DNA of 49,897 bases from a virus, in the IMG/VR virus record IMGVR_UViG_3300006128_000018, positions 1 through 49,897 of that record. The stretch is one strand, 5' to 3'. The notes beneath the pieces are model-generated. The model saw only the letters and a program-made list of their open reading frames with translations, made no database searches and was not told where the DNA came from. Below, piece by piece: positions 7,471 through 32,545 of this stretch (its first letter is position 1; each line of letters starts with the position of its first letter). A program made the position numbers and the translations under genes.

Positions 7471-7953
7471 TTAAATTTTAAGATCTTCCGCCAAAAAATC
7501 TGGAGGACCATTTTCTTGATCATGAATTTTGATCTTTTTTGGTTTTTTATGTTCTGGAATAACATGCTCAAGATAAATTTTAAGCATTCCATTTAATAGT
7601 TTGGCATTTTTTACTTCTACATTATCAGCAAGAGTAAATTGCCGCTGAAATGTACGATCTGCGATGCCTTTATGAATATATGTTCTTTCGATTGCATCTT
7701 TAGCATGATCTTCAACTGTTTGAAGCTTACCTTTAATCTTGAGAACGCTTTCTTCCAATTCGAGTTCAATATCATTTTTAGCAAATCCTGCAACAGCCAT
7801 TTCGATTAAATATTTGTTTTCATCAATTTTGCTGATATTATATGGCGGGTATCCAACTACCTGTTTTGCCATATTATCTTGCATCTGTTTTAGATGGCTA
7901 AAAGTTTGTTCAAATCCAATAAAATATGGATTAGTATTTAAATATAGTCCCAT
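7471..7953 (-). CDS. Small heat-shock protein, Hsp20/IbpA family
   Basis: 160 residues. Small heat-shock proteins are ATP-independent holdases that keep unfolding proteins soluble, and they are common in cyanophage-type T4 relatives. A short N-terminal arm is followed by the alpha-crystallin domain (about 35-140). Typical pieces are YLIEMAVAGFAKNDIELELEE, the RTYIHKGIADRTFQRQFTL segment, and the conserved NGMLKIYLEHVIPE end. The start has a very strong AGGAGG. The gene has its own upstream small ORF and promoter (8139-8166) and a terminator immediately after. It may help virion assembly or host proteostasis during infection (inference). Confidence 0.93.
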   Translation of the reverse strand: MGLYLNTNPYFIGFEQTFSHLKQMQDNMAKQVVGYPPYNISKIDENKYLIEMAVAGFAKNDIELELEESVLKIKGKLQTVEDHAKDAIERTYIHKGIADRTFQRQFTLADNVEVKNAKLLNGMLKIYLEHVIPEHKKPKKIKIHDQENGPPDFLAEDLKI

Positions 7954-10963: not shown

Positions 10964-10992
10964 ATACTATCATACTATTGAATTAGTGTCAA
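10964..10992 (-). promoter_or_regulatory. Sigma70-like promoter for gene 45
   Basis: On the minus strand, TTGACA (10,987-10,992), a 17-base spacer and TAGTAT (10,964-10,969). It overlaps the last codons of the upstream glycosyltransferase gene. The expected start site falls at the edge of the hairpin at 10,933-10,955. Confidence 0.65.
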
Positions 10993-11951
10993 GCTTTTTT
11001 TCCAAGCTTAGTAGGATCTGCTGTAGCAGCAGCTCCAACAGCAGCTAGATCAGCAAGAGAACCACCAAATACATATGTACCTACATGTTGTAGACCAATC
11101 CATGGGCAGAGCCAAACCTTTAGACCAATCTTACGGGCCCATTGACAGAACATATAATCTTCTGATAGATAACGATTAGAATATTCAAAACCAAAAGCAC
11201 TATTCTTGGTATCATCAAGGAATGCGATAACATCATTAGCTGTGGCATTTGGATTTTGCTTAAAGAACTCACGAATTTCAGGACCAATTTGTGCATGCTT
11301 ATTATCAATAAGAGCATCAAATAGACACATAATTTCGCGTGAACCATCAAAAGCTGCAGTGCGAACGTGATCAGGACGATAAGTTAAGAATGGATATTCT
11401 TGTCCCATCTTAATAAGCGTTTCCTTACGAATCATCATAAATCCTGTGCCGGATTCTAGAACTTCTGCAGGTTCGGCAATTTTAATTTCATTAGCACCGT
11501 TTGCTGGATTAAAGACATAATCACCAACAAATCGTTCTAGAATATTAGGATCTTCATCAGCAAATCCTTTATCTACTGCAGTCTTTACCTTTTCCCATGA
11601 AATACACTTCTTAGGATATGGTGCACACAGAATATCATATTCACTTTCATCTGATTGAAGAGCTAGCATAGTTAGAACATCATTAGCATTAAATCCAATA
11701 TCAGAGTCAATGAATAGAAGATGGGTGCAATCTGAACGCATAAATTCATCGATACAATAATTTCGTGCACGAGTAATAAGAGATTCGTTGAATAGATAAT
11801 AATATTTTACTTCAATGCCATAGTGTACGGCAAGAGCAGATAGGTCATTGGTGCTACGACAAAACATGCCTGCGCACATACCACCATACATCGGTGTTGC
11901 AACAAATAGCTTACGCTTACGTAATTCTTCTACTGGGATCTTAACTTCCAT
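10989..11951 (-). CDS. GT-A-type glycosyltransferase-like protein
   Basis: 320 residues. The N-terminus (KLFVATPMYGGMCAGMF) and HLLFIDSDIGF, with the DXD-type metal and sugar-nucleotide motif at 82-84, give a GT-A fold of the GT2-like kind. The conserved later segment SEDYMFCQWARKIGLKVWL supplies the usual acidic ED pair. No membrane anchor is seen. The acceptor cannot be told from sequence. Because the gene lies beside a dCMP hydroxymethylase and base-modification genes, glycosylation of modified cytosine in DNA is a reasonable guess, but protein or saccharide acceptors are possible. The C-terminus is Ala-rich. Confidence 0.8.
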   Translation of the reverse strand: MEVKIPVEELRKRKLFVATPMYGGMCAGMFCRSTNDLSALAVHYGIEVKYYYLFNESLITRARNYCIDEFMRSDCTHLLFIDSDIGFNANDVLTMLALQSDESEYDILCAPYPKKCISWEKVKTAVDKGFADEDPNILERFVGDYVFNPANGANEIKIAEPAEVLESGTGFMMIRKETLIKMGQEYPFLTYRPDHVRTAAFDGSREIMCLFDALIDNKHAQIGPEIREFFKQNPNATANDVIAFLDDTKNSAFGFEYSNRYLSEDYMFCQWARKIGLKVWLCPWIGLQHVGTYVFGGSLADLAAVGAAATADPTKLGKKA

Positions 11952-12381: not shown

Positions 12382-13578
12382 TCAATTAAAGAAAGTTTCA
12401 AGAGAATTAGATGGTGTATTAGTTTCAGTAAGCATAGACGCATTATATTGGAAAGTTAATGAACTGTCAACAGTTTTTCTATTACCTAATAGATATTCGC
12501 GTACTTCTGTTGCCATATCCATTGCGGTTTGTACTGGAACATTTTGACAAATATGATTATAACTTTGTTTTGGATTTAAAAGAATATAATCTTCTGGCAT
12601 ACCCATAATAGAAAGAGCTTCACGATAAGTGATATATCTATCTTCATATGGATGAGTTAGCATTTTTGGATAATGACCAACAAAAGCTCCAATATAATTT
12701 TTTGGTACAATTGTACCTCTACGCATAATGTTTCCACCATCATCTAGTTTTTTAAACATTCGTTCACATTTTTCTACTTCTTTTTCATAACCATTTTTGG
12801 CCATCCATTCACCAACTTGCTTATATGTATGGTTATGTTGTTCAATAAGACTTTTTGCATCAAAATATCTAACAGAAATATCAAATGCATCTAAGATATC
12901 GAAGTGTTGTCTATGGGTGATTCCACCATGAATAACTTCTAACAAATACCTATAATATGGATCTTTTGTTGGAGTATTATTATTAATTGGTTCCATCATA
13001 GAATTGGCTTTAATACCAGTAATTACATCTTCAATACGAGTATAATCTCTACGATAGAAATTCAATATTGGAGTTTTATCACCTTTCCAAAAAAAGTAAA
13101 ATGTCCGTTCTCTGACTTGTGGAACTCCATGTAATAGACTTTTAGTACGATATAAAGTCATACTATATCCATTATTTTTACCAATTTCAATAAGTTGTTT
13201 ACGAATTGGCTCTCCAAGTTTACCAGCAAGAGCAGGAGCATTTTCTCCCCAAAATACTTCTGGTTTCATTTGTCCTAGAACATATTTTGCAGATTCTATT
13301 AACCATTTATTATTTGGATTGTGTTCGCCATATGCTGTTGAAAATAAAGACAATCCTGCACATGGACAAACAGAAGAAACTACATCTACATAATGAGGAT
13401 GCTTATCTCCTTCATCTAAGAGATAATATGGAACTTCATTATTCCAATAATTTAAAAGATGTGATTCATTATTTTTAAATGGTGAGTAAGAAATTATATA
13501 TTCTGGTCTATTCCCAAATACTCGAGTAGAAGCAATAGCTTCTCCTCCAATTAATGGAATAATAGTAGCATGTTTCAT
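12382..13578 (-). CDS. DNA cytosine-C5 methyltransferase-like protein
   Basis: 398 residues. Motif IV with the catalytic Cys is SSVCPCAGLSLFS (near 67-79), motif VI is WGENAPAL, motif VIII is GVPQVRERTFYFFW, and motifs IX-X are YREALSIMGMPEDY and QNVPVQTAMDMATEV. The AdoMet-binding motif I is atypical: IIPLIGGEAIAS replaces the usual D-F-x-G-x-G-G start. This is a diverged phage version that could methylate cytosine at C5 or modify it differently. It overlaps the next gene by 4 bases (ATGA) in a putative base-modification operon. If the phage replaces C with hmC, a plain C5-methyltransferase would have few targets, which is noteworthy. Confidence 0.85.
   Translation of the reverse strand: MKHATIIPLIGGEAIASTRVFGNRPEYIISYSPFKNNESHLLNYWNNEVPYYLLDEGDKHPHYVDVVSSVCPCAGLSLFSTAYGEHNPNNKWLIESAKYVLGQMKPEVFWGENAPALAGKLGEPIRKQLIEIGKNNGYSMTLYRTKSLLHGVPQVRERTFYFFWKGDKTPILNFYRRDYTRIEDVITGIKANSMMEPINNNTPTKDPYYRYLLEVIHGGITHRQHFDILDAFDISVRYFDAKSLIEQHNHTYKQVGEWMAKNGYEKEVEKCERMFKKLDDGGNIMRRGTIVPKNYIGAFVGHYPKMLTHPYEDRYITYREALSIMGMPEDYILLNPKQSYNHICQNVPVQTAMDMATEVREYLLGNRKTVDSSLTFQYNASMLTETNTPSNSLETFFN
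12442..12470 (-). promoter_or_regulatory. Sigma70-like promoter inside the methyltransferase 3' end
   Basis: On the minus strand, TTGACA (12,465-12,470), a 17-base spacer and TATAAT (12,442-12,447), about 75 bases before the DUF3310-like gene. It would let the DUF3310-like and glycosyltransferase genes be expressed apart from the rest of the modification cluster. Confidence 0.6.
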
Positions 13579-14675
13579 AAAAAAGCCTCAAGACTAGCAT
13601 TATCAATATTCACTGAAGTATTTATATGTGATAATGGAACTGATAGCTTATTCCAATCCCAACCTTGCCAATGTGGATAATATTCTCTTGATAGATGAAC
13701 AGACTTTGGTTTTTCCATATATTTAAAGTCTAATTCGCCATTAAAATTAATTAACCCATTTACCCATTGAAATAATTTTACATTATCATTTTCATTTTTT
13801 TTACATTCATCTTTAAAAATTAGACGAATTTCATTCCGTTCTTTCCATGAACCAAAAAATGGAGTTTTTTCATACCAACCAGTTTTAGGAATAGACCTAG
13901 ATGGATTTTCTATTGGTAGTAATTCATAAATTCTTACTTCTGCTTTATGATTTTTAGCTATAGCATTAGCTTGATCAAAATATCTACGAACTAATTCTCT
14001 AGTAGTTTCTTCTGGATTAGGTTGTCTCATAAGATGATGTCTAACATCAATATTACCAAAATAAAATTCTATTTCATCAAATTTATGATTATTTGGTAAT
14101 ATAAATGTTTCTAATCCCATATTAAGTGCTCCGTGAAGAGTCTTAAATGGAATGGAAGTATTCATCCATCCTGGTCTATACATACAAATTGCATGAGAAT
14201 CACCAATTGCAATTTTATTATATAATTTAATTAAATTTGGAACTACAGTTATAGCTGTAGCTTCCATTCTTTTGATATTTTCCCAATCTACAAGATTCCA
14301 TCTATTATCAATAGGCTTATTTTTTGCAATAGCCAAGTCTACTTTATGCTTAAGCTGATCATAATAATTAGGAAAATCTATAATTAAAGAATATACTTTT
14401 CCTTTAAATTTAGAAAAATTTAAAAAATTATCTACATGAGGAAATTCAGTTAAACCACCAAATAAATTTAAATGTCCACTCCAATCATTTCCATGATATA
14501 CATAAAGCTCATCGAATAAATTGAAATCTTCATAATATAGATCTAATGACATATTGACTGTCACATCAATACCTGCATTTTTTAATTGATCAGCATAAAT
14601 TACTCCTTGTGCTGCTCTATGTGAAGAAAGATTCTTCGCAATAGGAATAAAAGGAGTAGCTAATAATGATTTCAT
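13575..14675 (-). CDS. SGNH-hydrolase-like protein of unknown substrate
   Basis: 366 residues. A GDSH motif at 158-161 (nucleophile Ser160), an FGNIDVRHH block at 206-214 and KSVHLS near 324-329 fall in the order expected for SGNH/GDSL-fold esterases or acyltransferases. The first 150 residues (TPFIPIAKNLSSHRAAQG start) may be a separate domain. No signal peptide is seen, so it should act in the cytoplasm. It lies between the methyltransferase and PLP-enzyme genes with 4-base overlaps on both sides, which ties it to the same pathway. A role in adding or removing an acyl group during base modification is inference. Function is otherwise unknown. Confidence 0.6.
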   Translation of the reverse strand: MKSLLATPFIPIAKNLSSHRAAQGVIYADQLKNAGIDVTVNMSLDLYYEDFNLFDELYVYHGNDWSGHLNLFGGLTEFPHVDNFLNFSKFKGKVYSLIIDFPNYYDQLKHKVDLAIAKNKPIDNRWNLVDWENIKRMEATAITVVPNLIKLYNKIAIGDSHAICMYRPGWMNTSIPFKTLHGALNMGLETFILPNNHKFDEIEFYFGNIDVRHHLMRQPNPEETTRELVRRYFDQANAIAKNHKAEVRIYELLPIENPSRSIPKTGWYEKTPFFGSWKERNEIRLIFKDECKKNENDNVKLFQWVNGLINFNGELDFKYMEKPKSVHLSREYYPHWQGWDWNKLSVPLSHINTSVNIDNASLEAFL

Positions 14676-15547
14676 AAGTCTTTATCCCACTTACGATATG
14701 AATCTATATTACTATAGATATCAATATTTGTCAACTCTGGTTCTTTACCAACATTCCAAAATAAAATATTTTTTCCTGAATTCTTTGGAATATATTTCCA
14801 AACTTTTCCATCATATGTTGCAATATTAGGAAATGGTGGAAGATTACGACTTTTTTCAGGTGTTGTAAATGGTAAAGGCTCGGATATTACTTCGGCTCTG
14901 CCTAATTCGCCTTCCTTTAAATTTCTAGCTACTGCTATACATGTAAATTTAGCCTTAGGCCAAGCTATTTGAAGAGCTCTAGATAATACACCGGTTGATA
15001 TTGCAACATATACTTCATCAGGTGGATCAATTTTAGAAGCTGCATGAACAATTGCTGCTGTGGCCAATTCATGTTTTAAACCTAATGGAACAAAAAATGC
15101 ATTATTTTCATGTGCCCATTCTTTTGCATAGATATTTAATATTGGCATAGCGGCAATACGTTTGAATATAGGAATAGCTCCTTGTTCAATACAACACGCT
15201 TGATGTAAAGATACTTTTTTACATGCAGGCATAAACAAAACTACTTTTTTATTATGATGTCTTGCTGCATCTAATATAGAAACTCCAGCTAATCCAGTAC
15301 GTGGCTGAGAATATACTATTGTTTCATAATTAGTCTTAGAGACAAGTAAATCACCTGATCTAGATTTTGTTCCAACAATAAGATCATCTCTTACTACTCT
15401 AATACCTTCATGTTCAATAACTACTGGATCTGGATTATATGGAATCCAATTTTCAGCTAAAGACAAATAATATTCTTTAGCTGCTTCATAACCCATAACT
15501 CCAACATCTTTATTGTGACCATCTACTATATGTTTATTATGCGTCAT
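14672..15547 (-). CDS. PLP-dependent enzyme, tryptophan-synthase-beta/ACC-deaminase fold
   Basis: 291 residues. VVRDDLIVGTKSRSGDLLV (51-69) matches the V-R-D-D-L-x-G-x-K-x-R signature of the ACC-deaminase/threonine-synthase fold, with K61 as the likely PLP-binding lysine. The YSQPRTGLAGVSILDAARHHNKK segment resembles the substrate-binding S-x-N-x-x-x-A loop, and AISTGVLSRAL is the phosphate-binding Gly/Ser region. PLP enzymes of other folds are known in phage thymine-hypermodification pathways. This gene overlaps both neighbours in a modification-type operon, so I infer it supplies or attaches an amine or amino-acid group. Substrate unknown. Confidence 0.75.
   Translation of the reverse strand: MTHNKHIVDGHNKDVGVMGYEAAKEYYLSLAENWIPYNPDPVVIEHEGIRVVRDDLIVGTKSRSGDLLVSKTNYETIVYSQPRTGLAGVSILDAARHHNKKVVLFMPACKKVSLHQACCIEQGAIPIFKRIAAMPILNIYAKEWAHENNAFFVPLGLKHELATAAIVHAASKIDPPDEVYVAISTGVLSRALQIAWPKAKFTCIAVARNLKEGELGRAEVISEPLPFTTPEKSRNLPPFPNIATYDGKVWKYIPKNSGKNILFWNVGKEPELTNIDIYSNIDSYRKWDKDL
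14706..14734 (-). promoter_or_regulatory. Sigma70-like promoter inside the PLP-enzyme gene
   Basis: On the minus strand, TTGACA (14,729-14,734), a 17-base spacer and TAATAT (14,706-14,711). It would drive the SGNH-like and methyltransferase genes separately. The consensus match is good but it lies in coding sequence, so it may be chance. Confidence 0.45.
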
Positions 15548-16541
15548 GTGTTAATCTATCATATCTATTTGTTTTTAATGACCATTCTATTGGATATACC
15601 CAATCATATGGAATTTGTTTGGTTGTTGATTTTACACCATTTTTAATTGCAATATGTTTATAAAAAAAACATAATTTGTCTTCAATATTTAAATATTTTT
15701 GAGTATATATTGGATTGCTTTTATGATTTACTAAATAATTCATCATCTCTATAAATTGTTTTGCTGAATTATTTAGAGCAACATATTCTCCATTTTCATC
15801 AATTTCATATTTAACTTTACTCATTAAATTCGAGCAATCAAATACTTGTTGTAATCCATCAAAAAAACCTGTACCACCATGCAAAAATGAATTAGGATTG
15901 ACCCATTCTGGATGACTCATGGCCACGTGTCTTGCTGCATTTTTACATGGATACATAGCATTACGAAATCCTTGTTCATTTACAAAATATTCATTTAAAA
16001 TTTTGGCAAATTCCATCATAGAATATGGACGATTTTTAGCTCCTAATATTTTATGCATTGCATTAGCAGCTTTTGGCACACTATTAATAAGCCATTCGTC
16101 TACTTTAGTTCCTTTTGGATAATAAATTTGAAACAAATCTGATCTAGAATGCCGATTATTTTCAAATCTAGCTTTTAGACCATCAACTCCATGATATTTC
16201 CATTCACAAAAAGTTTGCCAATGTTCATTGGTAAATGAAAATAATAAACAAGAATGAAGAACTAGTTCTTTATTGGCAATATTAGAAACATCTTCAACAA
16301 ATGGGCATTCATGCCAATGTAATCTATGAGAAAATTGTTGATAATTTTCTTTTAAAAGACTATCTTTTCTTTGATCATAAGCTCGACAAAATTCAAAAAA
16401 CTTCTCAGTTCGTTCTTCTTGAGTCCAATCTTTCATCCAACTTCTAATTGGCTTATGCTTTTCATTTAAAGAAACTTTTGCTAGATTATTATATTGAATA
16501 TTATATGGATTATCGTCCAATAAATCAGCTAATGCATTCAT
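15537..16541 (-). CDS. Helix-rich hypermodification-type protein, paralogue 1
   Basis: 334 residues, mostly helical, with many Trp, His and Asn. The stretch 195-235 (GFRNAMYPCKNAARHVAM, HPEWVNPNSF, then GGTGFFDGLQQVF) aligns with the same region of the next gene upstream. This suggests both belong to one superfamily. The pattern resembles the helical glycosylase-derived domains predicted to act in phage hypermodified-base synthesis (aGPT-pyrophosphorylase, 5-hmdU-kinase helical domain or amino-acid:DNA transferase types; recalled from the literature). It overlaps the PLP gene by 11 bases and its paralogue by 17. Exact family and reaction are uncertain. Confidence 0.6.
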   Translation of the reverse strand: MNALADLLDDNPYNIQYNNLAKVSLNEKHKPIRSWMKDWTQEERTEKFFEFCRAYDQRKDSLLKENYQQFSHRLHWHECPFVEDVSNIANKELVLHSCLLFSFTNEHWQTFCEWKYHGVDGLKARFENNRHSRSDLFQIYYPKGTKVDEWLINSVPKAANAMHKILGAKNRPYSMMEFAKILNEYFVNEQGFRNAMYPCKNAARHVAMSHPEWVNPNSFLHGGTGFFDGLQQVFDCSNLMSKVKYEIDENGEYVALNNSAKQFIEMMNYLVNHKSNPIYTQKYLNIEDKLCFFYKHIAIKNGVKSTTKQIPYDWVYPIEWSLKTNRYDRLTHDA

Positions 16542-17706
16542 ATAAATTTTTCACTTTTATCTTATATTCAGATACATTCATTCCTACACTATTTAAAATA
16601 GTAGCATCGGATGGATGAGACTTCATTCCATTAAATGTATTTATTAAGCCAAGATCTAACATAGCTTTTTGTCTACCAAATGGATGATCTTTAATTTTGC
16701 AAGAAGACCAAACTTTATCAAAATCTAAATGATTATAATCTGCTCCAGGTCTAACATAATTTTCTACCCATCTAATAAAATCACAGCATACATCTTCTGC
16801 ATTATATGGAACAGATTGTGTATCATCATAAATTTTCATCATTACTTCATCTAAAAACTGATCTTGATTCATCTTACTAGTTGATTTAGCAAGATATGAG
16901 ATACATTCACGGGCATTTGTTCCATAATAGAACATAGACTCTTTATTAACATATTGTGGATACCAATCTGCAATATCTGCAATAACAGCTGCATATTGAA
17001 ATTTATATGCATTCATTCCATTATTGATATTCCATTTAAATATAAAATCTCCAATTTCTCGAAGATCTTTTTTATGATTAGACGATTGTAAATATTCTGC
17101 TAAGTCTCTAGCAAGTCTTGGTGCAAATTCACAAAGATAATAATCTCCACCTCTTTTATATCCTGCTGGAGGTTTTGGAAAACTAGGAAATTGATATCCT
17201 ACTGAAGTATAAAAAGGTTCTTTATAATTCTTAATTAATTTAATCATTCCTTCAATATCTCTATAATTATAGAGATGAAACAAAATAGTATTATGATATC
17301 CTGAAGGTTTTGTTGCGTAATTAATAGCTGATCCAGTTACTCGATGCAAGATAAAAATATAAAGCCATTCAGGAAGATCAAAATCTGAGTGTTTACCGGT
17401 CCAATCTTTAGCAACCATTTCTCTTTGACGAGTAACGGCATTTTTTTTCATTTTCTCCCAATAAGGATGTTTTTCTGTCCAACCATAAAAACAATCATTA
17501 ATAATTTGAGAAAATCCTGCATATTTACGTTCAACTACATCATATAGCTCTACATGATGCATAAGATCATCATCTAAATTACTATCTATGTGTTTAAGCA
17601 TACCATATGGTGGATTAGAAGAAACATTGCATTTTTCTTGTTGGTCACGAGCCAAATTATAATACCTAATAAATTCATCATAATATTCGGTAGTTTCAAT
17701 ACTCAT
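16525..17706 (-). CDS. Helix-rich hypermodification-type protein, paralogue 2
   Basis: 393 residues. Distinctive blocks are LPEWLYIFILHRVTGSAINY (111-130), PFYTSVGYQFPSFPKPP (164-180), YYLCEFAPRLARDLAEYL near 189-206, YPQYVNKESM plus YYGTNARECISYL (249-272), DVCCDFIRWVENYVRPG near 307-323, and a DHPFGRQKAMLDLG segment. The 230-272 region aligns with residues 190-235 of the 334-residue neighbour. This kind of protein has been linked by comparative genomics to phage DNA base hypermodification. It overlaps the dCMP deaminase start (ATGA), which ties it to the hydroxymethyl-dCMP supply genes. A DNA-level transferase or kinase role is inference. Confidence 0.6.
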   Translation of the reverse strand: MSIETTEYYDEFIRYYNLARDQQEKCNVSSNPPYGMLKHIDSNLDDDLMHHVELYDVVERKYAGFSQIINDCFYGWTEKHPYWEKMKKNAVTRQREMVAKDWTGKHSDFDLPEWLYIFILHRVTGSAINYATKPSGYHNTILFHLYNYRDIEGMIKLIKNYKEPFYTSVGYQFPSFPKPPAGYKRGGDYYLCEFAPRLARDLAEYLQSSNHKKDLREIGDFIFKWNINNGMNAYKFQYAAVIADIADWYPQYVNKESMFYYGTNARECISYLAKSTSKMNQDQFLDEVMMKIYDDTQSVPYNAEDVCCDFIRWVENYVRPGADYNHLDFDKVWSSCKIKDHPFGRQKAMLDLGLINTFNGMKSHPSDATILNSVGMNVSEYKIKVKNLYECIS

Positions 17707-18143
17707 TCAAATAACCATTCTACTTTGGCTTCAGAAAATATTTCACTCGATTTAATCCAAGAAGATTTCCATATAGAGTCTTCAATTAGATTTGAACTTT
17801 TTGGCATAATTACACGTTTAATTCCTACTTGTATTACGCCTAAAGCACAAGATGCACATACAGGAAGACCTGTTACATATAGAGTAGAATTTTTTAGACT
17901 AATACCATTATGAGTAGCATTATAGATAGCATTCATTTCAGCATGTACTATTAGTTGATACTTTTCTTCTCTATTATCTAATCTAGTGTTGTCTTTAATT
18001 CCTCTAGGAAATCCATTCCATCCAGTAGATAAAATTTGTTTATCATCATTGACTATAACTGCACCAATTTTTCTTGAAGGATCTTTACTCCAAGTAGAAA
18101 TGTGTTTAGCCAAATCTAAAAATCTTTGATTCCAATCTGTCAT
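17703..18143 (-). CDS. cd: dCMP deaminase
   Basis: 146 residues. It converts dCMP to dUMP for thymidylate synthesis. The zinc site and catalytic Glu are HAE at 67-69 and PVCASC with C96 and C99, and the start TDWNQRFLDLAKHISTWSKDP is typical of the family. It overlaps the hydroxymethylase gene by 4 bases, so two competing uses of dCMP (deamination and hydroxymethylation) are made from one transcript, as in T4. A second, more divergent deaminase lies at 39,190. Confidence 0.93.
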   Translation of the reverse strand: MTDWNQRFLDLAKHISTWSKDPSRKIGAVIVNDDKQILSTGWNGFPRGIKDNTRLDNREEKYQLIVHAEMNAIYNATHNGISLKNSTLYVTGLPVCASCALGVIQVGIKRVIMPKSSNLIEDSIWKSSWIKSSEIFSEAKVEWLFE

Positions 18144-18796
18144 GGCTTTACAAGAGGAAAGTGACGAGAATATACGTGAAGGGAACCTACATTCCAGTAT
18201 AATTTACCAATTTCAATTTTAAGATTATGAGCTAATTCTTCAAGAACATATTGCTGCCATGCTCTATCATTTCTATAACCAAATACAACATCATTACTTC
18301 TCATTTGTACTACAGCATTAAGCTTATTATTTCGAATAAGATATTGCACAGTATTTGTACACATAAAATCTGATCGACCATTTTTATTATAATCTTCCCA
18401 CATAGAAGGACGAGTATAAATCATGATAGCTCGACGAGAATTTGGATTTAGAATAAGTTCATCTAAAACATTACGATATTGATTTCCGTTTTTGGCTGAC
18501 CAGATAGCCCAACCATAATTGCTATTAATAAATCCTTCATCATCAGCAACCTGCTTCCAAATTTCAGGAATTGGATCAGGAATATCATTTACATTTAATG
18601 ATTGACTTTTATACCATTCGATTTCTCGATTTACATATTTGTAATTAACTACACCAAAAATGGTTTCTTTGTCTGCTTCAAAGCTAGCATTTACTAATTC
18701 AATAGTTTGAACACCGGTTTTATCAATTACAAAATCTTCTCTATTTAAAGCATTAACAAAATATTTTTTAATATCACTTACTTTGTGACGAATCAT
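18140..18796 (-). CDS. 42: dCMP hydroxymethylase (T4 gp42-like)
   Basis: 218 residues from the ATG at 18,796. A longer frame exists, but T4 gp42 begins at the equivalent of this Met (KVSDIKKYFVNALNREDFVIDKTGVQTIE). The enzyme makes 5-hydroxymethyl-dCMP using methylene-THF. The catalytic Cys is C146 in SDFMCTNTVQYL. The substrate-discriminating position is D177 in GYRNDRAW, the Asp that in T4 gp42 favours dCMP; thymidylate synthases have Asn. The NSNYGWAIWS, RRAIMIYTRPSM and NVGSLHVYSRHF blocks match T4 nearly word for word. The C-terminal 25-30 residues of T4 are missing. It strongly predicts hmC in the DNA. Confidence 0.93.
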   Translation of the reverse strand: MIRHKVSDIKKYFVNALNREDFVIDKTGVQTIELVNASFEADKETIFGVVNYKYVNREIEWYKSQSLNVNDIPDPIPEIWKQVADDEGFINSNYGWAIWSAKNGNQYRNVLDELILNPNSRRAIMIYTRPSMWEDYNKNGRSDFMCTNTVQYLIRNNKLNAVVQMRSNDVVFGYRNDRAWQQYVLEELAHNLKIEIGKLYWNVGSLHVYSRHFPLVKP

Positions 18797-19130
18797 TTTC
18801 AATCTTTCTATTAAACATGTCTCGAGTCGAGTCTTGGCCTTCCATCTTACCACGAAGATAAGAAATAGCAAAACTAGCATAATTAATTAGATCTTTATAT
18901 GTATCTTCTAAAGATTCAAAATTAGGAGTATTAGTATTTGCTTCTAATAGAGATTGAGCACGAAGCAATTTTTGTGAAATCATATCATGGATTGTGTCAA
19001 TTCCACGTCGATAATGCATGGCTTGTACTACATTAGAATTTGGATTATTATAATCTTGTGATTTCTTAAATTGTAATTCAATACACTCACGAAGAACCAT
19101 AATAGATTCTTTTTCATTAATATTACTCAT
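18774..19130 (-). CDS. DUF1599-like (nucleotide-modification-associated) protein
   Basis: 118 residues, with the ATG overlapping the upstream stop (TGATG). The pattern ECIELQFKKSQDYNNP, an R-K-L-R block, and LEDTYKDLINYASFAI fits the small helical DUF1599 family, which often occurs with nucleotide-modification genes. It overlaps the hydroxymethylase start by 23 bases. The C-terminus is acidic. I infer an accessory role in nucleotide metabolism; no catalytic residues can be assigned. Confidence 0.6.
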   Translation of the reverse strand: MSNINEKESIMVLRECIELQFKKSQDYNNPNSNVVQAMHYRRGIDTIHDMISQKLLRAQSLLEANTNTPNFESLEDTYKDLINYASFAISYLRGKMEGQDSTRDMFNRKIENDSSQSK

Positions 19131-19573
19131 CACGCAATAAACCTTTCATGTTTAGACATAGCTTTTGAATTCTCATATAGAATATTAACACGAGAATCAT
19201 TTACTGTAAACAAGTATTTTGCATATTTGATGTTATATAATCTATATGGTTCACAATTACTGTTATATTTAGTAATATATTGATAATTTTCTTTTGGATT
19301 ATCAAATTTGTATACTTGTATACCATCTTCAAGTTTTTCTGGAACTTGAACAAAATATAAAGTATTAACTCCATCAATTTTTTTAAATTGTGATTTATCT
19401 ATCCAAAGAGACTTAGAATTATGATTTAGTCTATTGGTTTTGACTTCATAAGATCCATTTTTATCAATTCCATCTTTTTCTGAATCAAACCAATTGTCAG
19501 TTCGTATTGTACCTTCAATATATTCTATAATAATATCTTCACCAATTTGGCCATTTGTTCTTTTAATAGACAC
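19130..19573 (-). CDS. Putative small PD-(D/E)XK-fold nuclease
   Basis: 147 residues starting at GTG with AGGA upstream. GQIGEDIIIEYIEG, then EKDGIDKNGSYEVKTNRL, gives the order G-x-x-GE-E..D..(D/E)-x-K expected of a restriction-like core (D at about 36, EVKT near 43-46). A WIDKSQFKKI helix and the strand LYFVQVP follow. No other domain is present. It sits immediately upstream of the DUF1599-like and hydroxymethylase genes. A nuclease that spares modified phage DNA and cuts host DNA would fit, but this is inference. Metal residues support the fold only moderately. Confidence 0.55.
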   Translation of the reverse strand: MSIKRTNGQIGEDIIIEYIEGTIRTDNWFDSEKDGIDKNGSYEVKTNRLNHNSKSLWIDKSQFKKIDGVNTLYFVQVPEKLEDGIQVYKFDNPKENYQYITKYNSNCEPYRLYNIKYAKYLFTVNDSRVNILYENSKAMSKHERFIA

Positions 19574-19581
19574 CTTAAATC

Positions 19582-19986
19582 CTAAATGTTATAGATTTGT
19601 GTAAGTAATCCATAATTATCTTCATGAGATGGAGGAGTCCATCCGGCTGGTTTAATAAGATCTGGAAGACCAAGAGGATTTGGTCTAGATGCTTTAATTC
19701 CAACTTCCTTATTCATATTTGCTTTATGTACTTCATCCCAAGCTACCTGAGGATCTACATTAAAGATATCAAGAGTTCCAATAGCAACAACACAAAGATC
19801 AATAAGAGCATCTACTACATCTTCTTCATTATTAGCTTCTTTTAACTCGTTTAATTCTTCTTCTAAAAATGAAATTCTAAACTTTAGAAGTGCTTTTAGC
19901 TTTTCAGAATCCATTGAAGAAACTACATTATGCACTTTATAATGATCGTGCATATTTTTAATATCTAATGGCCAATTTGTACTCAT
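19582..19986 (-). CDS. MazG-like nucleotide pyrophosphohydrolase
   Basis: 134 residues. The helical all-alpha NTP-pyrophosphatase signature is seen as FRISFLEEELNELKEANNEEDVVDALIDLCVVAIGTL, where E-x-x-E and D-x-x-D acidic residues bind magnesium. Homologues in phages hydrolyse (d)NTPs to NMPs, or degrade alarmones or modified nucleotides. Here it may remove unmodified dCTP or protect the pool for hmC synthesis (inference). It overlaps the deformylase gene by 4 bases. Confidence 0.8.
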   Translation of the reverse strand: MSTNWPLDIKNMHDHYKVHNVVSSMDSEKLKALLKFRISFLEEELNELKEANNEEDVVDALIDLCVVAIGTLDIFNVDPQVAWDEVHKANMNKEVGIKASRPNPLGLPDLIKPAGWTPPSHEDNYGLLTQIYNI

Positions 19987-27723: not shown

Positions 27724-27798
27724 ATCCCGATAGTTTAATGGATAAAACCGAAGTCTTCTAAACTTCTAATGAAAGTTCGATTCTTTCTCGGGATGCCA
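27724..27798 (+). tRNA. tRNA-Arg (anticodon TCT)
   Basis: Acceptor ATCCCGA pairs with TCGGGAT. The anticodon stem GAAGT/ACTTC encloses the loop CTTCTAA with anticodon TCT. The T-stem GAAAG/CTTTC holds the TTCGATT loop. CCA is encoded. It reads AGA, a codon used very often in this AT-rich phage. Confidence 0.9.
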
Positions 27799-27801
27799 TT
27801 T

Positions 27802-27809
27802 TATAAATA
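27802..27809 (+). promoter_or_regulatory. T4-type late promoter box before the HAD gene
   Basis: TATAAATA directly after the tRNA-Arg CCA end and 16 bases before the ATG at 27,825. Confidence 0.55.
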
Positions 27810-27824
27810 TCGTAAAAGGAATTT

Positions 27825-28445
27825 ATGATGCAATTTTTTACAGAGTTTTTAATTGAAGAAGAAAATTCTCTCCATGCATTTGATATGGATGAGACGCTTT
27901 TTTCTCATGATCCAACTAAATTACAAATTCATGTAAATGATGCTCAAGGAAATAGAGTTCAATCTTTAACAAATCAAGAATTCAATAGTTATAAACTTCC
28001 TACAAATCATAGTTATGATTTTTCTGATTTTGAATCTTCTTCTAAATTATATCAAACGGCAAAACCTATTCGTAAAATGATAGCTAAAATGAAAGCTATA
28101 CATAATAAAGGTGGTAAAACTGAAATCGTAACGGCTAGATCAGATTTTGATGATCAGCCAAAATTTAAAGAATTTATGAATAAATATGGTGTAGATATTA
28201 ATAAAATTCATGTTCGCAGAGCTGGAAATCTTCAAGGTCGAGCTCCAGAAAATAAGAAACGGGTTATTTCTAATCTTATTAAACAATATGGATATAAAAT
28301 AGTGCATTTATATGATGATTCAAAAGAAAATCTTTCACATTTCTTGTTATTAAAACAAGATCATCCTAATGTCAATTTTCATGCTCATCACGTAAATCAT
28401 AACGAGCACACTGGAAATACAACCATAACTACAACGAGGGTATAA
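27825..28445 (+). CDS. HAD-superfamily phosphatase-like protein
   Basis: 206 residues (ATGATG start; the second Met is equally likely). Motif I is AFDMDETLF (nucleophile Asp and general acid Asp near 19-21). EIVTAR is motif II, the conserved Lys follows in a PENKKRVI segment, and LYDDSKENL is motif IV with the metal-binding acids. The C-terminus is His- and Asn-rich. It could act on 5'/3' phosphates, nucleotides or sugars. Similar small HAD proteins occur in T4-like phages. The late box just upstream suggests late expression. Confidence 0.8.
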
Positions 28446-28603
28446 TGAAACAGAAAAAGCTTCTAAAAGAATTATATAAAGCCTGCATTGCAAATAATGT
28501 TGAACGCATTGCTGAATTGAGAAAAATTGAATTTAAAAAAATTTTTAAAAGAAAAGCAAAAGGCAAAAAGTTTGGTCCTAAATGGACCAATGTAAGGATC
28601 TAA
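28445..28603 (+). CDS. Basic hypothetical protein, 52 aa
   Basis: Start overlaps the HAD-gene stop as TAATG. Strongly basic: [17 protein letters not shown] near the C-terminus, with an N-terminal helix. No family is recognised. Might bind nucleic acid (inference). Confidence 0.5.
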
Positions 28604-28604
28604 A

Positions 28605-28886
28605 ATGATATATGTAAAATGTGAAGAATGCAATGAAAATTATGAAAGTTTATTTCAATCTGATGAACAAAACTTTTCAATGCTAGCTATGGAATGCGCA
28701 GCAGAATATCAAAAGTCTACAAATAGAGTATTTGGCCATTATGGATCTAAAATTATAGATCTTCAGGTTTGGAAATTTACTAAAGAAGTAGATTATCCAA
28801 ATAACGCAATATTGTGTGATAAATGTTTACAAAATTTTATAAATGATAATAGTTTAGTATATGTTAAAGATTATAACTTAAATTAA
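28605..28886 (+). CDS. Small zinc-ribbon-like protein
   Basis: 93 residues. KCEECNENY at the start and ILCDKCLQNF near the end provide two CxxC pairs, a likely zinc ribbon. The middle is acidic and aromatic. No family is recognised. It starts two bases after the preceding stop and ends just before tRNA-Asn. Confidence 0.6.
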   Translation: MIYVKCEECNENYESLFQSDEQNFSMLAMECAAEYQKSTNRVFGHYGSKIIDLQVWKFTKEVDYPNNAILCDKCLQNFINDNSLVYVKDYNLN

Positions 28887-28887
28887 A

Positions 28888-28964
28888 GCCATATTAGCTC
28901 AGCAGGTAGTAGCGGATGGTTGTTAACCATCAGGTCATAGGTTCGAGCCCTACTTGTCCAACCA
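28888..28964 (+). tRNA. tRNA-Asn (anticodon GTT), with unpaired acceptor stem
   Basis: The anticodon arm is intact: GATGG/CCATC with the loop TTGTTAA and anticodon GTT at 28,922-28,924. The T-loop TTCGAGC and the CCA are present. The acceptor halves GCCATAT and TTGTCCA barely pair (about 3 of 7), and one T-stem pair and one D-stem pair are mismatched. It is either decaying or repaired or edited after transcription. Confidence 0.6.
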
Positions 28965-28993
28965 CACTTTAACTTTTATATTATGGAGATAAG

Positions 28994-29545
28994 ATGATTT
29001 ACGTTAACCTCCCATCAGTAGTTCCTTCAGTTACATTTAAGACTCGAGTGCATGATGAAAGCATTGATGGTCCAAACCCATATCGTTGGGAAGACAAGAC
29101 CAGCTTTGATTACTTCGGTGGCAAGCGAGTTATTCTATTCGCACTGCCAGGAGCATTTACACCTACTTGCTCTGCTTACCAACTACCCGGTTTTGAGAGT
29201 ATGCATTTTGATTTTGGCAAGTACGGCATTGACGAAATTTATTGTTTGTCAGTAAATGATGCCTTCGTTATGAATGCATGGGCTAAGTCACAAAATATTG
29301 AACGTGTAAAGATGATTCCGGATGGCTCTGGACATTTTACTGAAGGTATGAACATGCTGGTCGATAAGGATAACCTTGGCTTTGGTGTGCGGTCTTGGCG
29401 CTATGCTGCTATAATTAATAACGGCAAGATTGAGAAGTGGTTCATTGAGCCTAATCGTGGTGACAATGTTACCAGCGATCCCTATAGTGTATCATCACCC
29501 GAGAGCGTTATGGAGTGGCTAAAGCATGGAACTGATGCTGCATAG
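28994..29545 (+). CDS. Peroxiredoxin (Prx5/AhpC-TSA type)
   Basis: 183 residues. The peroxidatic Cys is in LPGAFTPTCSAYQLPGF (C59), the conserved P-x-x-x-T-x-x-C motif. VILFALPG and a GFGVRSWRYAAII segment fit the Prx5 group, and no resolving Cys is obvious, so it probably acts as a 1-Cys enzyme with glutaredoxin or another thiol. It reduces peroxides. Codon choice is richer in C- and G-ending codons than neighbouring genes, which points to acquisition from a host. It lies between two tRNA genes, a common site for added genes. Confidence 0.9.
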   Translation: MIYVNLPSVVPSVTFKTRVHDESIDGPNPYRWEDKTSFDYFGGKRVILFALPGAFTPTCSAYQLPGFESMHFDFGKYGIDEIYCLSVNDAFVMNAWAKSQNIERVKMIPDGSGHFTEGMNMLVDKDNLGFGVRSWRYAAIINNGKIEKWFIEPNRGDNVTSDPYSVSSPESVMEWLKHGTDAA

Positions 29546-29647
29546 AATCAATATGGCAATGCAGGCTAATGATAGAGCTTGCTGTGACTGAGGAAAAGTT
29601 TACTAGCAAAGTGTCATAAATAAACTCAGGAAGCAGCATTAAAATTA

Positions 29648-29721
29648 GCCCCTTTAGTTAAATGGTATAACAACTGTTTTGTAATCAGTAGTCAGTGGTT
29701 CGATTCCATTAAGGGGCACCA
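29648..29721 (+). tRNA. tRNA-Thr (anticodon TGT)
   Basis: Acceptor GCCCCTT pairs with AAGGGGC. The anticodon loop TTTGTAA has TGT (reads ACA). The T-arm with the TTCGATT loop is present and CCA is encoded. The innermost anticodon-stem pair is a mismatch. The 102 bases between the peroxiredoxin stop and this tRNA hold no convincing gene; a short TTGCT/AGCAA pairing is seen. Confidence 0.88.
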
Positions 29722-29742
29722 TTTTTTAATTAGGAAAATATA

Positions 29743-29970
29743 ATGGATGATGAAACACTAAAACTTAAAGTTGATTATTTTAGCAATCAATTAGATAATA
29801 TTATTATGAAATGTGAAAGTATTGATGAATTAACCATACTTGCTACTATCATGATGGCATATGCACGTAAAGGTTTAGGAATTACTATTGGTAATCAAGA
29901 TCTTGCAGATGCTTGTATGTTTGATTATTTGGATGCTTTAGCACCAACAACACCAAAAGCTATAGTTTAA
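29743..29970 (+). CDS. Hypothetical protein, 75 aa
   Basis: ATG behind AGGAAAATATA. Acidic, helical protein with Met-rich segments (TILATIMMAYARKGLGI). No family is recognised. Its stop overlaps the next start (TTTAATG). Confidence 0.55.
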   Translation: MDDETLKLKVDYFSNQLDNIIMKCESIDELTILATIMMAYARKGLGITIGNQDLADACMFDYLDALAPTTPKAIV

Positions 29971-30191
29971 TGAAAAATTTTAAAGACTTTAATGAAAATT
30001 CTGAAAAATACGAATCTATTAGCATTGAAGTTTTAGGTATTGATAACATTTGGCGGCGAGTAGAAGGTGGCATTACAAATAATGCTCAATACATTGCAAG
30101 AGCCTTAAATAATACTAAGAAGAGATATCCTAATAATCGTATAAGAGCTGTTGGACAAATTACCGGCAGATTTTATGATATGGTACCATAA
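29970..30191 (+). CDS. Hypothetical protein, 73 aa
   Basis: ATG overlaps the previous stop as TAATG. MKNFKDFNE start, then a beta-like region (SISIEVLGIDNIWRRVEGG) and NNTKKRYPNNRIRAVGQITGRF. No family is recognised. A small alpha-beta fold is likely. Ends three bases before tRNA-Gly. Confidence 0.55.
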   Translation: MKNFKDFNENSEKYESISIEVLGIDNIWRRVEGGITNNAQYIARALNNTKKRYPNNRIRAVGQITGRFYDMVP

Positions 30192-30194
30192 TAA

Positions 30195-30269
30195 GCGGAT
30201 GTAGCTCAGTGGTAGAGCACTGTCCTTCCAAGTCAGGTGTCCTCGGTTCGAATCCGAGTATCCGCTCCA
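30195..30269 (+). tRNA. tRNA-Gly (anticodon TCC)
   Basis: Acceptor GCGGATG pairs with TATCCGC (one G-T). The D-arm begins GCTCAGTGGTAGAGC. The anticodon loop CTTCCAA carries TCC (reads GGA). The T-arm CTCGG/CCGAG holds TTCGAAT, and CCA is encoded. The anticodon stem has one T-T mismatch. Confidence 0.92.
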
Positions 30270-30293
30270 ATTTTAATATGAAAGGAATATGAT

Positions 30294-30554
30294 ATGGCAG
30301 TAAAAACTCGTAGTAAATATACTTCAAAAGGAATTCATTCTTCAGTTTCTCATGGAGTACTTCAAGCAGTACGCGCTGATAGAACTTATTTAGAAAAGCT
30401 TGCATTTATTTCAACAGCATGGAAACAATTCAAGAACCCATGGATTACTATTGAAAATCCAAATAAATCGGAAACAAATCGCCGATTTATTCGAGTACGT
30501 ACAAATTCAATTTGGGGCAATCCTAAGTATAAAAAAGAAGAAGCTAGTGAATGA
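30294..30554 (+). CDS. Basic hypothetical protein, 86 aa
   Basis: ATG with AAAGGAA upstream. MAVKTRSKYTSKGIHSSVSHG start, then a helical AFISTAWKQFKNPWITIENPN segment and a basic end. No family is recognised with confidence. The last bases overlap the HNH-like gene start (ATGA). Confidence 0.6.
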   Translation: MAVKTRSKYTSKGIHSSVSHGVLQAVRADRTYLEKLAFISTAWKQFKNPWITIENPNKSETNRRFIRVRTNSIWGNPKYKKEEASE

Positions 30555-31045
30555 CCAATTCTGCTAATACCGAAGCACAATCTAGACATTTGGTCAATGA
30601 TACTATGGAAATTTCTGTTTGGTATCCAGGCCATGAACCAAGAACTTCTTCTTCTAAATTTAGAAATACAGTTAAAAAGCTAATTAAAGAAGAAGATACT
30701 CCATGTTGGATATGTGGTTCTAAAGAAAATAGAGAAGTTCATCATTTCTATATCGAATGGGCATATGCAAATGCTATCGATTGGAATAAGGTCAAAGTAG
30801 ATCATCCTTTATTTGATTGGGCTTCTTTTAAAGAATCTGAAGATTTTATTGATAGTCCATATAATATGAAAGTACTTTGTATGGTACATCATAGAGGTAA
30901 AAATCACGGAATTCATAGAGTTCCATATCCAATTTGGCAAGTACAAAAATATATTAGAGACGATTTTAAAATGTTTAGTCATGTGCATCATGATAATCCG
31001 GATGCTGGTGAAATTATTGATCTAATTTTGCTCTATGGCGATTGA
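30551..31045 (+). CDS. HNH-type endonuclease-like protein
   Basis: 164 residues. CWICGSKENREVHHF (about 56-70) gives the CxxC plus V-H-H of an HNH centre, and YNMKVLCMVHHRGKNHGIH supplies a second Cys-His-His group. The metal-binding scaffold therefore resembles HNH nucleases that recur in T4-like phages. Whether it is a free-standing homing endonuclease or a replication-linked nuclease is not clear. It is coupled to the upstream gene by an overlap and followed by a promoter. Confidence 0.7.
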   Translation: MTNSANTEAQSRHLVNDTMEISVWYPGHEPRTSSSKFRNTVKKLIKEEDTPCWICGSKENREVHHFYIEWAYANAIDWNKVKVDHPLFDWASFKESEDFIDSPYNMKVLCMVHHRGKNHGIHRVPYPIWQVQKYIRDDFKMFSHVHHDNPDAGEIIDLILLYGD

Positions 31046-31069
31046 CATTAATTCATAATATGATATTAT
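31042..31069 (+). promoter_or_regulatory. Sigma70-like promoter
   Basis: TTGACA (31,042-31,047), a 16-base spacer and TATTAT (31,064-31,069), overlapping the end of the HNH gene. Precedes the gene at 31,094. Confidence 0.6.
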
Positions 31070-31093
31070 AATCTTCTAATATGGAGATTGAAT

Positions 31094-31468
31094 ATGGGAT
31101 TGATGCCAGTATATTATTCGAATACAAACACGCGTACGCGTAAAACAAAAAAGAAATCTTCTAGTCTTATTGCTGCTGAAAAAGATCTGGAGAGGACTCT
31201 TAAAAAAATGCGCTATATGCCATCTAAAACTAAAACATCCTCTCCAGCTCTATCTAATAGCTATGGCCCATATTCTGGACCTATCGATAGATATGTGCCA
31301 AAGACATCTGATATTATTCCTGGTGGAGTAGCTAAAAAATCTGAACCAATGGTTTATTCGGGTGAAACCCAACTCATTGGAATTGCTACTATGCATAAAA
31401 GTAATATGGTACCTATTTTTGCAAATAATAAAGAAAAAGCAAAAGAAATTGCTAGTATGAGGCGCTAA
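31094..31468 (+). CDS. Hypothetical protein, 124 aa, basic N-terminus
   Basis: Starts at the ATG at 31,094 with GGAG upstream; an in-frame TTG two codons earlier is unlikely. The N-terminal half is rich in Thr, Lys and Ser (disordered). The middle carries SYGPYSGPIDRYVPKTSDIIPGG. The C-terminal ETQLIGIATMHKSNMVPIF and KEIASMRR is a pattern often seen in a short protein of T4-like cyanophages. Function unknown. Stops at a late-type box. Confidence 0.6.
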   Translation: MGLMPVYYSNTNTRTRKTKKKSSSLIAAEKDLERTLKKMRYMPSKTKTSSPALSNSYGPYSGPIDRYVPKTSDIIPGGVAKKSEPMVYSGETQLIGIATMHKSNMVPIFANNKEKAKEIASMRR

Positions 31469-31476
31469 TATAAATA
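31469..31476 (+). promoter_or_regulatory. T4-type late promoter box
   Basis: TATAAATA overlaps the end of the preceding gene. It precedes a structured untranslated stretch and the cell-wall-hydrolase gene, so the late mRNA would begin with hairpins. Confidence 0.6.
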
Positions 31477-31479
31477 CAC

Positions 31480-31634
31480 ATGAAAGATCGATTCTTTCAT
31501 ATGACTCGATAAAAGCTTCAATGCCAATAGATGGTTAGAAAGCGACAAGCATTATACTTGTCATTAACTAAAACCCTAGCAATTTTGCATCTCTACATCG
31601 AGAGAGATGGTCGATAAAGATCTTCAATAAGATC
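31480..31634 (+). ncRNA. Structured leader or non-coding RNA with four hairpins
   Basis: Four stems follow one another in about 155 bases: ATGAAAGA/TCTTTCAT (31,480-31,500), GACAAG/CTTGTC (31,544-31,562), CATCTCT/AGAGATG (31,588-31,609) and GATCTT/AAGATC (31,619-31,634). No ORF is convincing here. The stretch from 31,469 to 31,683 is one of the longest gene-free gaps in the window. A late box sits directly upstream and a cell-wall hydrolase downstream. It could be a 5' leader controlling lysis timing, or an independent RNA. Confidence 0.4.
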
Positions 31635-31683
31635 GGCCGTTAAGACATCGTTTGTATCAAAATTGCGTGCTAAGAGGACTATT

Positions 31684-32169
31684 ATGTCAAATAAAATCTT
31701 ATCATTATTAATGATAGTATTGCCGCTAACTGTACTTTTTATTGCATTTAATGCAAAAGCTGAAGATACTTCATCTATTAATAATGATAAACAACAAATT
31801 AAATGTATGGCTGATAGCACATATTTTGAAGCCGGAAATCAACCATTAACTAGTCAAATTGCAATTAGTAATGTAATTATAAATAGAACTAAGAATGGTG
31901 ATGCTTTTGCCAAAACTCCTTGTGGAGTAGTCTATCAAAAAACACGAAAAGTTTGTCAATTTTCTTGGGTTTGTGCTAAAAAGCATTCACACATAGATGC
32001 CACAAACTATCAAAAAGCATATTATGTAGCAGAAATGGTTTATAATCATATTACAGATGATTTAACCAATGGCGCACTATTCTTTCACGATATTCATGAA
32101 CATCCAAAGTGGAAGGGCATGACTAAAACTGCAAAATTAGGACAATTTATTTTTTATAAATTGAAATAA
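31684..32169 (+). CDS. Secreted SleB-like cell-wall hydrolase
   Basis: 161 residues from the ATG at 31,684 with AAGAGGA upstream. The N-terminus is a signal peptide or anchor (KILSLLMIVLPLTVLFIAFNAKA). The mature part matches the SleB/Hydrolase_2 pattern: CMADSTYFEAGNQ with the catalytic Glu, ISNVIINRTKNGDAF, CGVVYQK and CQFSWVC, then AYYVAEMVYNH and ALFFHD. This family cleaves peptidoglycan glycan chains and is common in alphaproteobacteria. In a phage it may be a late lysis enzyme or entry-related muralytic enzyme. A separate M15 peptidase endolysin lies at 38,565. Confidence 0.85.
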   Translation: MSNKILSLLMIVLPLTVLFIAFNAKAEDTSSINNDKQQIKCMADSTYFEAGNQPLTSQIAISNVIINRTKNGDAFAKTPCGVVYQKTRKVCQFSWVCAKKHSHIDATNYQKAYYVAEMVYNHITDDLTNGALFFHDIHEHPKWKGMTKTAKLGQFIFYKLK

Positions 32170-32177
32170 ATATTTTT

Positions 32178-32269
32178 GGGCGGGCATCTGGTGGTGGCAA
32201 GGGTCTTATAATCCCTTTGGTCGGCAGATAACCGATTTGCTGAGAGTTCGATCCTCTCCCTGCCTACCA
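32178..32269 (+). tRNA. Atypical tRNA-like gene (class II shape, possible anticodon TAT)
   Basis: Acceptor GGGCGGG pairs with CCTGCCT (two G-T) and is followed by ACCA. The T-arm GAGAG/CTCTC with TTCGATC is intact. The anticodon arm AGGGT/TCCCT has loop CTTATAA, giving anticodon TAT. A 25-base variable region holds a second stem (TCGG/CCGA), as in Leu and Ser tRNAs. The D-arm (12 bases) is too short. An alternative folding puts anticodon GAT in that second hairpin with an abnormal position 33. Identity uncertain; it may be a pseudo-tRNA. Confidence 0.5.
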
Positions 32270-32293
32270 ATCTTCAAATATGAAGGAGAAATA

Positions 32294-32545
32294 ATGTATA
32301 AAATTTACACGAAAACAAATTGCACATATTGTACCGCAGCAAAAAATATGTTAAATGCTAAAGGTATTCCATTTGTTGAATTTAATATTGAAAATAATGA
32401 ACATTATAAAGAAACACTATTGACAGAAGTACCACACGCAAAAACAGTACCTCAAATTTTTGAAAATGATCAATATATCGGTGGATATCTTGAACTAGTT
32501 GAAAGAATGAAGCATTATGACACTTCCAACATGCTATATGAATGA
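32294..32545 (+). CDS. Glutaredoxin
   Basis: 83 residues from the ATG at 32,294 with AAGGAG upstream. YTKTNCTYCTAAKNML carries the dithiol CTYC active site (near 10-13). KTVPQIFENDQYIGGYLELVE contains the cis-Pro VPQIF and the GG loop, as in glutaredoxins. In T4 the homologue supports ribonucleotide reductase. Here it may also reduce the phage peroxiredoxin. The end overlaps the next gene. Confidence 0.93.
   Translation: MYKIYTKTNCTYCTAAKNMLNAKGIPFVEFNIENNEHYKETLLTEVPHAKTVPQIFENDQYIGGYLELVERMKHYDTSNMLYE

Follow-up and report, generated by a model that had tools for sequence, protein, structure and literature searches.

Which base is modified by a cassette of overlapping genes found in uncultured T4-like aquatic phages, and what is added to it? 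The stretch analysed here, referred to as the window, is a 49,897-base virus fragment from IMG/VR (IMGVR_UViG_3300006128_000018) whose minus strand carries, between positions 12382 and 18796, seven genes in one block with successive overlaps of 4, 4, 17, 11, 4 and 4 bp. All seven open reading frames of the operon for which an earlier reading of the letters alone (the sequence-only reading) had proposed a new cytosine hypermodification are thus present. The favoured, reasonably probable interpretation is a cassette by which 5-hydroxymethylcytosine (hmC) would be decorated with an amino acid after replication, followed by trimming through a pyridoxal 5′-phosphate (PLP) enzyme. It would constitute a deoxycytidine (dC) counterpart of the thymidine systems of Pseudomonas phage M6 and Salmonella phage ViI, with a different mode of activation. 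The seven genes, in which dCMP denotes deoxycytidine monophosphate, are as follows.

18140..18796, minus strand: T4-type dCMP hydroxymethylase (phmmer against PDB entry 1b49, E 4.5e-85, residues 34-244)
17703..18143, minus strand: dCMP deaminase with the zinc motifs HAE and PxCxxC (PF00383, E 1.4e-20; 10 of 19 dereplicated loci)
16525..17706, minus strand: H393, a helical protein of 393 amino acids, cassette core, predicted aGPT-PPlase/HMUDK_hel-like fold (AlphaFold2 model, pLDDT 82; Foldseek)
15537..16541, minus strand: H334, a helical protein of 334 amino acids, usually present, predicted to share this fold family (AlphaFold2 model, pLDDT 88; Foldseek)
14672..15547, minus strand: fold-type-II PLP enzyme homologous to gp052 of phage M6 (PALP PF00291, phrog_7093, hhalign)
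13575..14675, minus strand: SGNH-like protein of 366 residues, cassette core, with an N-terminal stretch resembling T4 beta-glucosyltransferase (conserved motifs, hhalign)
12382..13578, minus strand: C5-cytosine methyltransferase-like protein, optional (PF00145, E 5.4e-18; C73, E112, RER motif, N346)

The block is not a chance arrangement, since its genes co-occur in 19 dereplicated loci. Two scans of viral contigs yielded 132 loci, the gene block recurring in well over 100 IMG/VR contigs, and conservation was counted in those 19 loci, which have flanks of 4 kb or more on both sides. The H393 and SGNH-like families are each found in 19 of 19, the PLP enzyme in 18 (the remaining contig has a copy elsewhere), the hydroxymethylase in 16 and H334 in 15. 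The minimal set consists of hydroxymethylase, H393, PLP enzyme and SGNH-like protein; H334 is common, while deaminase and methyltransferase are optional. Gene order may be shuffled with the genes still lying together (L077), and relatives of the SGNH-like family alone number at least 573 in one IMG/VR scan.

The starting base is indicated by the hydroxymethylase, which is homologous over its full length to the T4 enzyme (gp42) and likely starts at position 18796, corresponding to Met29 of a longer mechanical reading frame (to 18880). It harbors the catalytic cysteine in an MCTN motif and, in a YRND motif, an aspartate at the position of residue 177 of thymidylate synthase (TS). The exchange of Asn for Asp at TS-177 is described as the switch from deoxyuridine monophosphate (dUMP) to dCMP (PMC8670742). 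Throughout the cassette loci this motif was read 84 times with Asp and never with Asn (42 distinct contexts, some of the loci overlapping), and a second reading in later loci gave 29 Asp and 0 Asn. The pattern is able to detect the Asn form, because it caught the ordinary TS of Aeromonas phage 44RR, which encodes an Asp-type hydroxymethylase as well. In contigs of the L100 type the hydroxymethylase does not adjoin the cassette, and the two largest as well as two smaller ones still encode one. Owing to the consistent Asp and to these additional genes, the cassette is predicted to sit in genomes that make 5-hydroxymethyl-dCMP, in agreement with the starting point supposed by the sequence-only reading, whose deaminase assignment holds equally.

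As the relatives of the helical and PLP proteins come from phages with 5-hydroxymethyluracil (hmU), the cassette might instead act on thymine or hmU as in M6 and ViI, with hmC as a separate trait. This is very unlikely, given that every TS-family match read in the cassette loci is of the dCMP type. A TS-family search of 12 cassette records gave a match in nine, a single one in each, so that nothing hints at a dUMP hydroxymethylase. The cassette falls outside the thymidine system, two of whose defining features were not found: the dUMP hydroxymethylase in the loci read, and the 5-hmdU DNA kinase (PF18748) above cut-off in six large contigs; nevertheless, it most likely works like it. In three loci (L061 5496-5912, L119 7601-8014 and L077 5349-5822) a cytidylyltransferase-like gene is located between or near hydroxymethylase and H393, PF01467 being confirmed in L061 and L119.

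The PLP enzyme, formerly assigned to the ACC-deaminase fold, is indeed of fold type II and related in sequence to the M6-type DNA-hypermodification PLP enzyme, its action on a DNA-bound amino acid being putative. PALP (PF00291) matches 11 of the 24 proteins in the family (best 5.6e-7), the enzyme itself matches phrog_7093 with E 6.2e-37, and in hhalign the family aligns with 24 M6-type PLP proteins over essentially the full length (prob 98.6, E 7.5e-16). Both groups share the C-terminal signature PFPxxxxYDxKxWK...FWNxG. Lys61, invariant in all 24 members and aligning near the SFSK motif of M6 gp052, is predicted to be the PLP lysine. In the work on M6, PLP enzymes are reportedly assigned to the decarboxylation of the DNA-bound amino acid. 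Distant homologues also occur in Erythrobacter and Microcystis phages (L134, L135), under genes that bear the annotation DNA modification methylase or ParB/sulfiredoxin, and may reflect another use of this family in DNA modification.

For the helical proteins, searches of Pfam, PHROG and NCBIfam with H334 and H393, as well as a PDB sequence search with H334, gave nothing significant, and tblastn of both against 50,697 phage records gave no match. Beyond their own orthologues and relatives, comparison of the models with BFVD by Foldseek places H393 next to helical-domain proteins of 5-hmdU DNA kinases from PhiW-14 and phiRSL1 (prob 0.97-0.99) and H334 next to aGPT-PPlase1, the SP10 5-hmdU DNA kinase and a PhiW-14 protein (prob 0.92-1.0), with a sharp drop from these matches to background. 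Weak structural matches of H334 in the PDB include helix-hairpin-helix DNA glycosylases. The case that both proteins belong with the aGPT-PPlase/HMUDK_hel family by structure, not by sequence, is moderately strong on these models. Thus, the structural comparison called for by the sequence-only reading returned hypermodification proteins and bore out its assignment at the level of the fold, but not as a family link by sequence. The profiles of H334 and H393 are connected weakly with each other (pairwise E 0.0012, prob 20%). UniProt names the orthologues of both 'Amino acid:DNA transferase domain-containing', a label that is probably automated, as Pfam ADDT does not match. In L100-type cassettes a small protein of the uracil-DNA-glycosylase superfamily (PF03167, below cut-off) is encoded directly before H393 (L100 7570-8001, L105 2818-3222).

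Taken on homology of the PLP and helical proteins, the attachment of an amino-acid-derived group to hmC is fairly probable, and it is very probable that the system acts on hmC beyond hydroxymethylation.

The SGNH-like protein offers a different possibility. In an alignment of 30 members its motifs GDSH, GNIDxRHH and SVHLS show little or no variation, with Ser160, His161, Gly207, Ile209, Asp210 and His327 strictly and Asn208 almost strictly conserved. These motifs are in keeping with the earlier SGNH-like call, whereas the DxxH aspartate three residues before the histidine of the SVHLS block is absent in the family and a Pfam SGNH match was not obtained for it. At the N-terminus, PF09198 is weakly matched by 11 of the 30 members (best E 0.002; 13 bits for the window protein against a cut-off of 27), and hhalign against T4 beta-glucosyltransferase (BGT) aligned only BGT residues 28-101 (E 1.7e-4, prob 50%). 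The SGNH/BGT-like protein might therefore add a sugar to hmC, with or without the product of a neighbouring gene, and the helical and PLP proteins would modify or prepare that sugar. The neighbour is

10989..11951, minus strand: glycosyltransferase-like protein (phrog_1574, E 1.3e-59)

and in Aeromonas phage phiAS4 (L148 4775-8047) a UDP-galactopyranose mutase, a putative glycosyltransferase and an SGNH homologue are encoded in a row, an arrangement for which galactofuranosyl-hmC is a possible product. Glycosylation is nonetheless unlikely: over its C-terminal two thirds the SGNH/BGT-like protein displays the SGNH-like motifs and no recognised sugar-nucleotide site, and the PLP enzyme is M6-related and belongs to fold type II rather than to the sugar aminotransferases. 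Homologues of the phrog_1574 gene also occur in Cr30, phiM12 and DLP6, phages in which no H334 or H393 relative was found, and its function is probably separate from the cassette.

Instead, the genomic contexts connect the SGNH-like protein with HMUDK_hel. ORF233c of Aeromonas phage 44RR2.8t (L001 6001-8388), which adjoins a sodium:solute symporter gene, encodes a protein of 795 amino acids with an SGNH-like homologue as N-terminal half. Its C-terminal half matches HMUDK_hel below the Pfam cut-off (E 8.6e-4) and is homologous (E 1e-23 to 1e-39) to proteins above that cut-off encoded directly upstream of the SGNH-like gene in L351, L352 and L382. In these three loci (L352 2119-8255, L382 2039-8225) the order is hydroxymethylase, deaminase, inositol-phosphate synthase, small protein, HMUDK_hel, SGNH and methyltransferase; the hydroxymethylase is Asp-type, the inositol-1-phosphate synthase belongs to PF01658, and H393, H334 and the PLP enzyme are missing nearby. 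Because a curated member adjoins SGNH, an accepted HMUDK_hel protein stands, by sequence, in the place of H393, H334 and PLP enzyme, and the cassettes suggest inositol as an alternative hmC substituent. A published account of the DNA modification of cultured Aeromonas phages with such a fusion was not found.

A more specific form of the hypothesis would be a kinase-free combinatorial platform: SGNH-like and helical protein would form a constant hmC-activating core, turning the hydroxymethyl group into a leaving group e.g. by O-acylation, and donor genes would be interchangeable, the PLP enzyme for amino acids and inositol-phosphate synthase for inositol. The 44RR fusion, the adjacency in L351, L352 and L382 together with the synthase (sought and not found in six other, large cassette records), the lack of a PF18748 kinase in six large contigs and the presence of SGNH in 19 of 19 loci agree with it. 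As the SGNH fold is putative and devoid of the usual DxxH aspartate, the inositol variant is known from two lineages, and a kinase of another family could lie elsewhere in the genomes, this form is plausible but rather unlikely.

Upstream of the seven genes the block runs on into a DUF1599 gene, a MazG-like gene and a peptide deformylase.

18774..19133, minus strand: DUF1599 ('nucleotide modification associated domain 1') protein, a neighbour conserved on the upstream side (PF07659, E 6.2e-7; 15 of 19 loci)
19582..19986, minus strand: MazG/PRA-PH-like nucleotide pyrophosphohydrolase (PF01503, E 4.3e-9; 16 of 19 loci)

In the amino-acid pathway, the phage makes 5-hydroxymethyl-dCMP, a step assigned by homology, and the MazG-like protein, a possible cleaner of the deoxycytidine triphosphate (dCTP) pool, fits, with the dCMP deaminase, a pool adjustment as in T4. 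Following incorporation of hmC at replication, H393, usually with H334, and the SGNH-like protein would activate the 5-hydroxymethyl group and join an amino acid to it. The PLP enzyme would then trim this amino acid, with decarboxylation, the reaction proposed for PLP enzymes of the M6 type, as the likeliest route. A decarboxylated amine as final product, e.g. 5-(2-aminoethoxy)methyl-dC or 5-(2-aminoethyl)-dC, is a tentative proposal, somewhat short of probable.

Several results weigh against this pathway. A 5-hmdU DNA kinase (PF18748) was not found above cut-off in the six large cassette contigs, and a radical S-adenosylmethionine (SAM) gene, present in three of them, was neither found in the other three nor identified in the cassette. 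Pfam HMUDK_hel (PF18723) and ADDT (PF18724) match no H393 or H334 member; against the alignments of these two domains, neither hmmsearch nor hhalign (P 0.16-0.53) was significant for either protein, although HMUDK_hel and ADDT compared with each other by hhalign give only 0.02. TM-scores of the helical models with HMUDK_hel proteins are modest (about 0.4-0.5; TMq for the Foldseek matches in BFVD about 0.36-0.44), and the PDB matches listed for H334 do not include the solved ADDT structure 8z2m. As to the host of the cassette phages, genome contigs were uninformative, giving only four contigs from metagenome-assembled genomes of unrelated taxa. Concerning the kinase, PF18748 is found in M6 and ViI, whereas PhiW-14, whose DNA is hypermodified, is negative too; its absence is therefore no proof that no kinase acts. 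On account of the 44RR fusion and the adjacency with HMUDK_hel in L351, L352 and L382, the SGNH-like protein is, speculatively, the most likely of the cassette proteins to carry out the activation.

Among the closest known systems, the M6-like cassette comprises hydroxymethylase, Nmad5, aGPT-Pplase1, kinase, radical SAM protein, PLP enzyme and aGPT-Pplase2 (PMC9476957). With M6, the source of 5-NedU, the present cassette has in common a TS-family hydroxymethylase, aGPT-PPlase-type helical proteins and a homologous fold-II PLP enzyme, but it uses dCMP (Asp) rather than dUMP as starting point, lacks an identified radical SAM gene and PF18748 kinase, adds the SGNH-like protein, and its helical link is undetectable by sequence. 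ViI (5-NeOmdU) likewise combines an HMUDK_hel protein with T4-like replication genes; it is, however, hmU based, possesses the kinase, and a homologue of the cassette PLP family was not found in it. T4 and its relatives (glucosyl-hmC, arabinosyl-hmC) share dCMP hydroxymethylase, deaminase and pool cleaning, yet there the sugar is put on hmC by glycosyltransferases, and PLP or helical proteins are not known from them. 44RR2.8t ORF233c and the L352 and L382 cassettes resemble the present one in joining an SGNH-like protein to an HMUDK_hel or HMUDK_hel-like protein and an Asp-type hydroxymethylase, and differ in that the PLP homologue was not found in 44RR nor near the other two, L351, L352 and L382 carrying the inositol-phosphate synthase instead. 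The 5-hmC carbamoyltransferase system (5-carbamoyloxymethylcytosine) likewise has an Asp-type hydroxymethylase, PRA-PH and dCMP deaminase neighbours and a second hmC-acting enzyme; the second step is carbamoyl transfer, and no PLP or helical proteins are reported in the searched text (PMC8670742).

The methyltransferase raises the question of a carboxymethylcytosine system with this enzyme as the base-modifying component. CmoX and CmoY form 5-carboxymethylcytosine glycine amide, also a phage modification in which an amino acid ends up on cytosine C5, with the carboxymethyl group added by CmoX and not hmC as handle; the DNA carboxymethyltransferase is marked by an SPPC motif and Arg350 at the motif-X position (PMC12783734). 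The C5-methyltransferase-like gene at the operon end would agree with such a system. The enzyme lacks SPPC, having CPC instead, and retains Asn346, which aligns with the motif-X Asn of M.HaeIII where CmoX has Arg350, residues that speak against a CmoX function. In addition, CmoA or a ligase was not identified among the window proteins scanned, and the gene is missing from most loci (present in 18 of about 130, and in 3 of 19 dereplicated loci), which makes a carboxymethylcytosine system hardly credible. The methyltransferase call of the sequence-only reading stands as to family, but the gene is an optional neighbour and nothing points to a role in the pathway.

Neither an hmC-based amino-acid hypermodification nor this gene combination was found described in the searchable literature, as had been suspected. 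In cultured phages, hypermodification with amino-acid-derived groups is known from thymidine, and the cassette would extend it to cytosine via hmC. Aminoalkyl-cytosines would then add to the natural bases and probably protect the DNA from restriction and type IV enzymes, while the proteins that make them would be new tools for adding amines to hmC DNA. Should the combinatorial form apply, widespread aquatic T4-like phages would contain new DNA bases with the donor gene setting amino acid or inositol. Cultured Aeromonas phages hold part of the system, making the question testable now.

Elsewhere, the window encodes T4-type replication genes (DnaB-like helicase, UvsX, RegA, clamp loader, clamp, gp46/47-like genes and UvsW). 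Its plus strand carries a second cytidine/dCMP deaminase-family gene (39190-39597) and, within 27724-33887, four tRNA genes together with genes for an acid-phosphatase-like protein (HAD IIIB), a peroxiredoxin, a cell-wall hydrolase and a group 1 glycosyltransferase. On the minus strand an Hsp20-family small heat shock protein (7471-7953) is flanked by polymerase and RegA.

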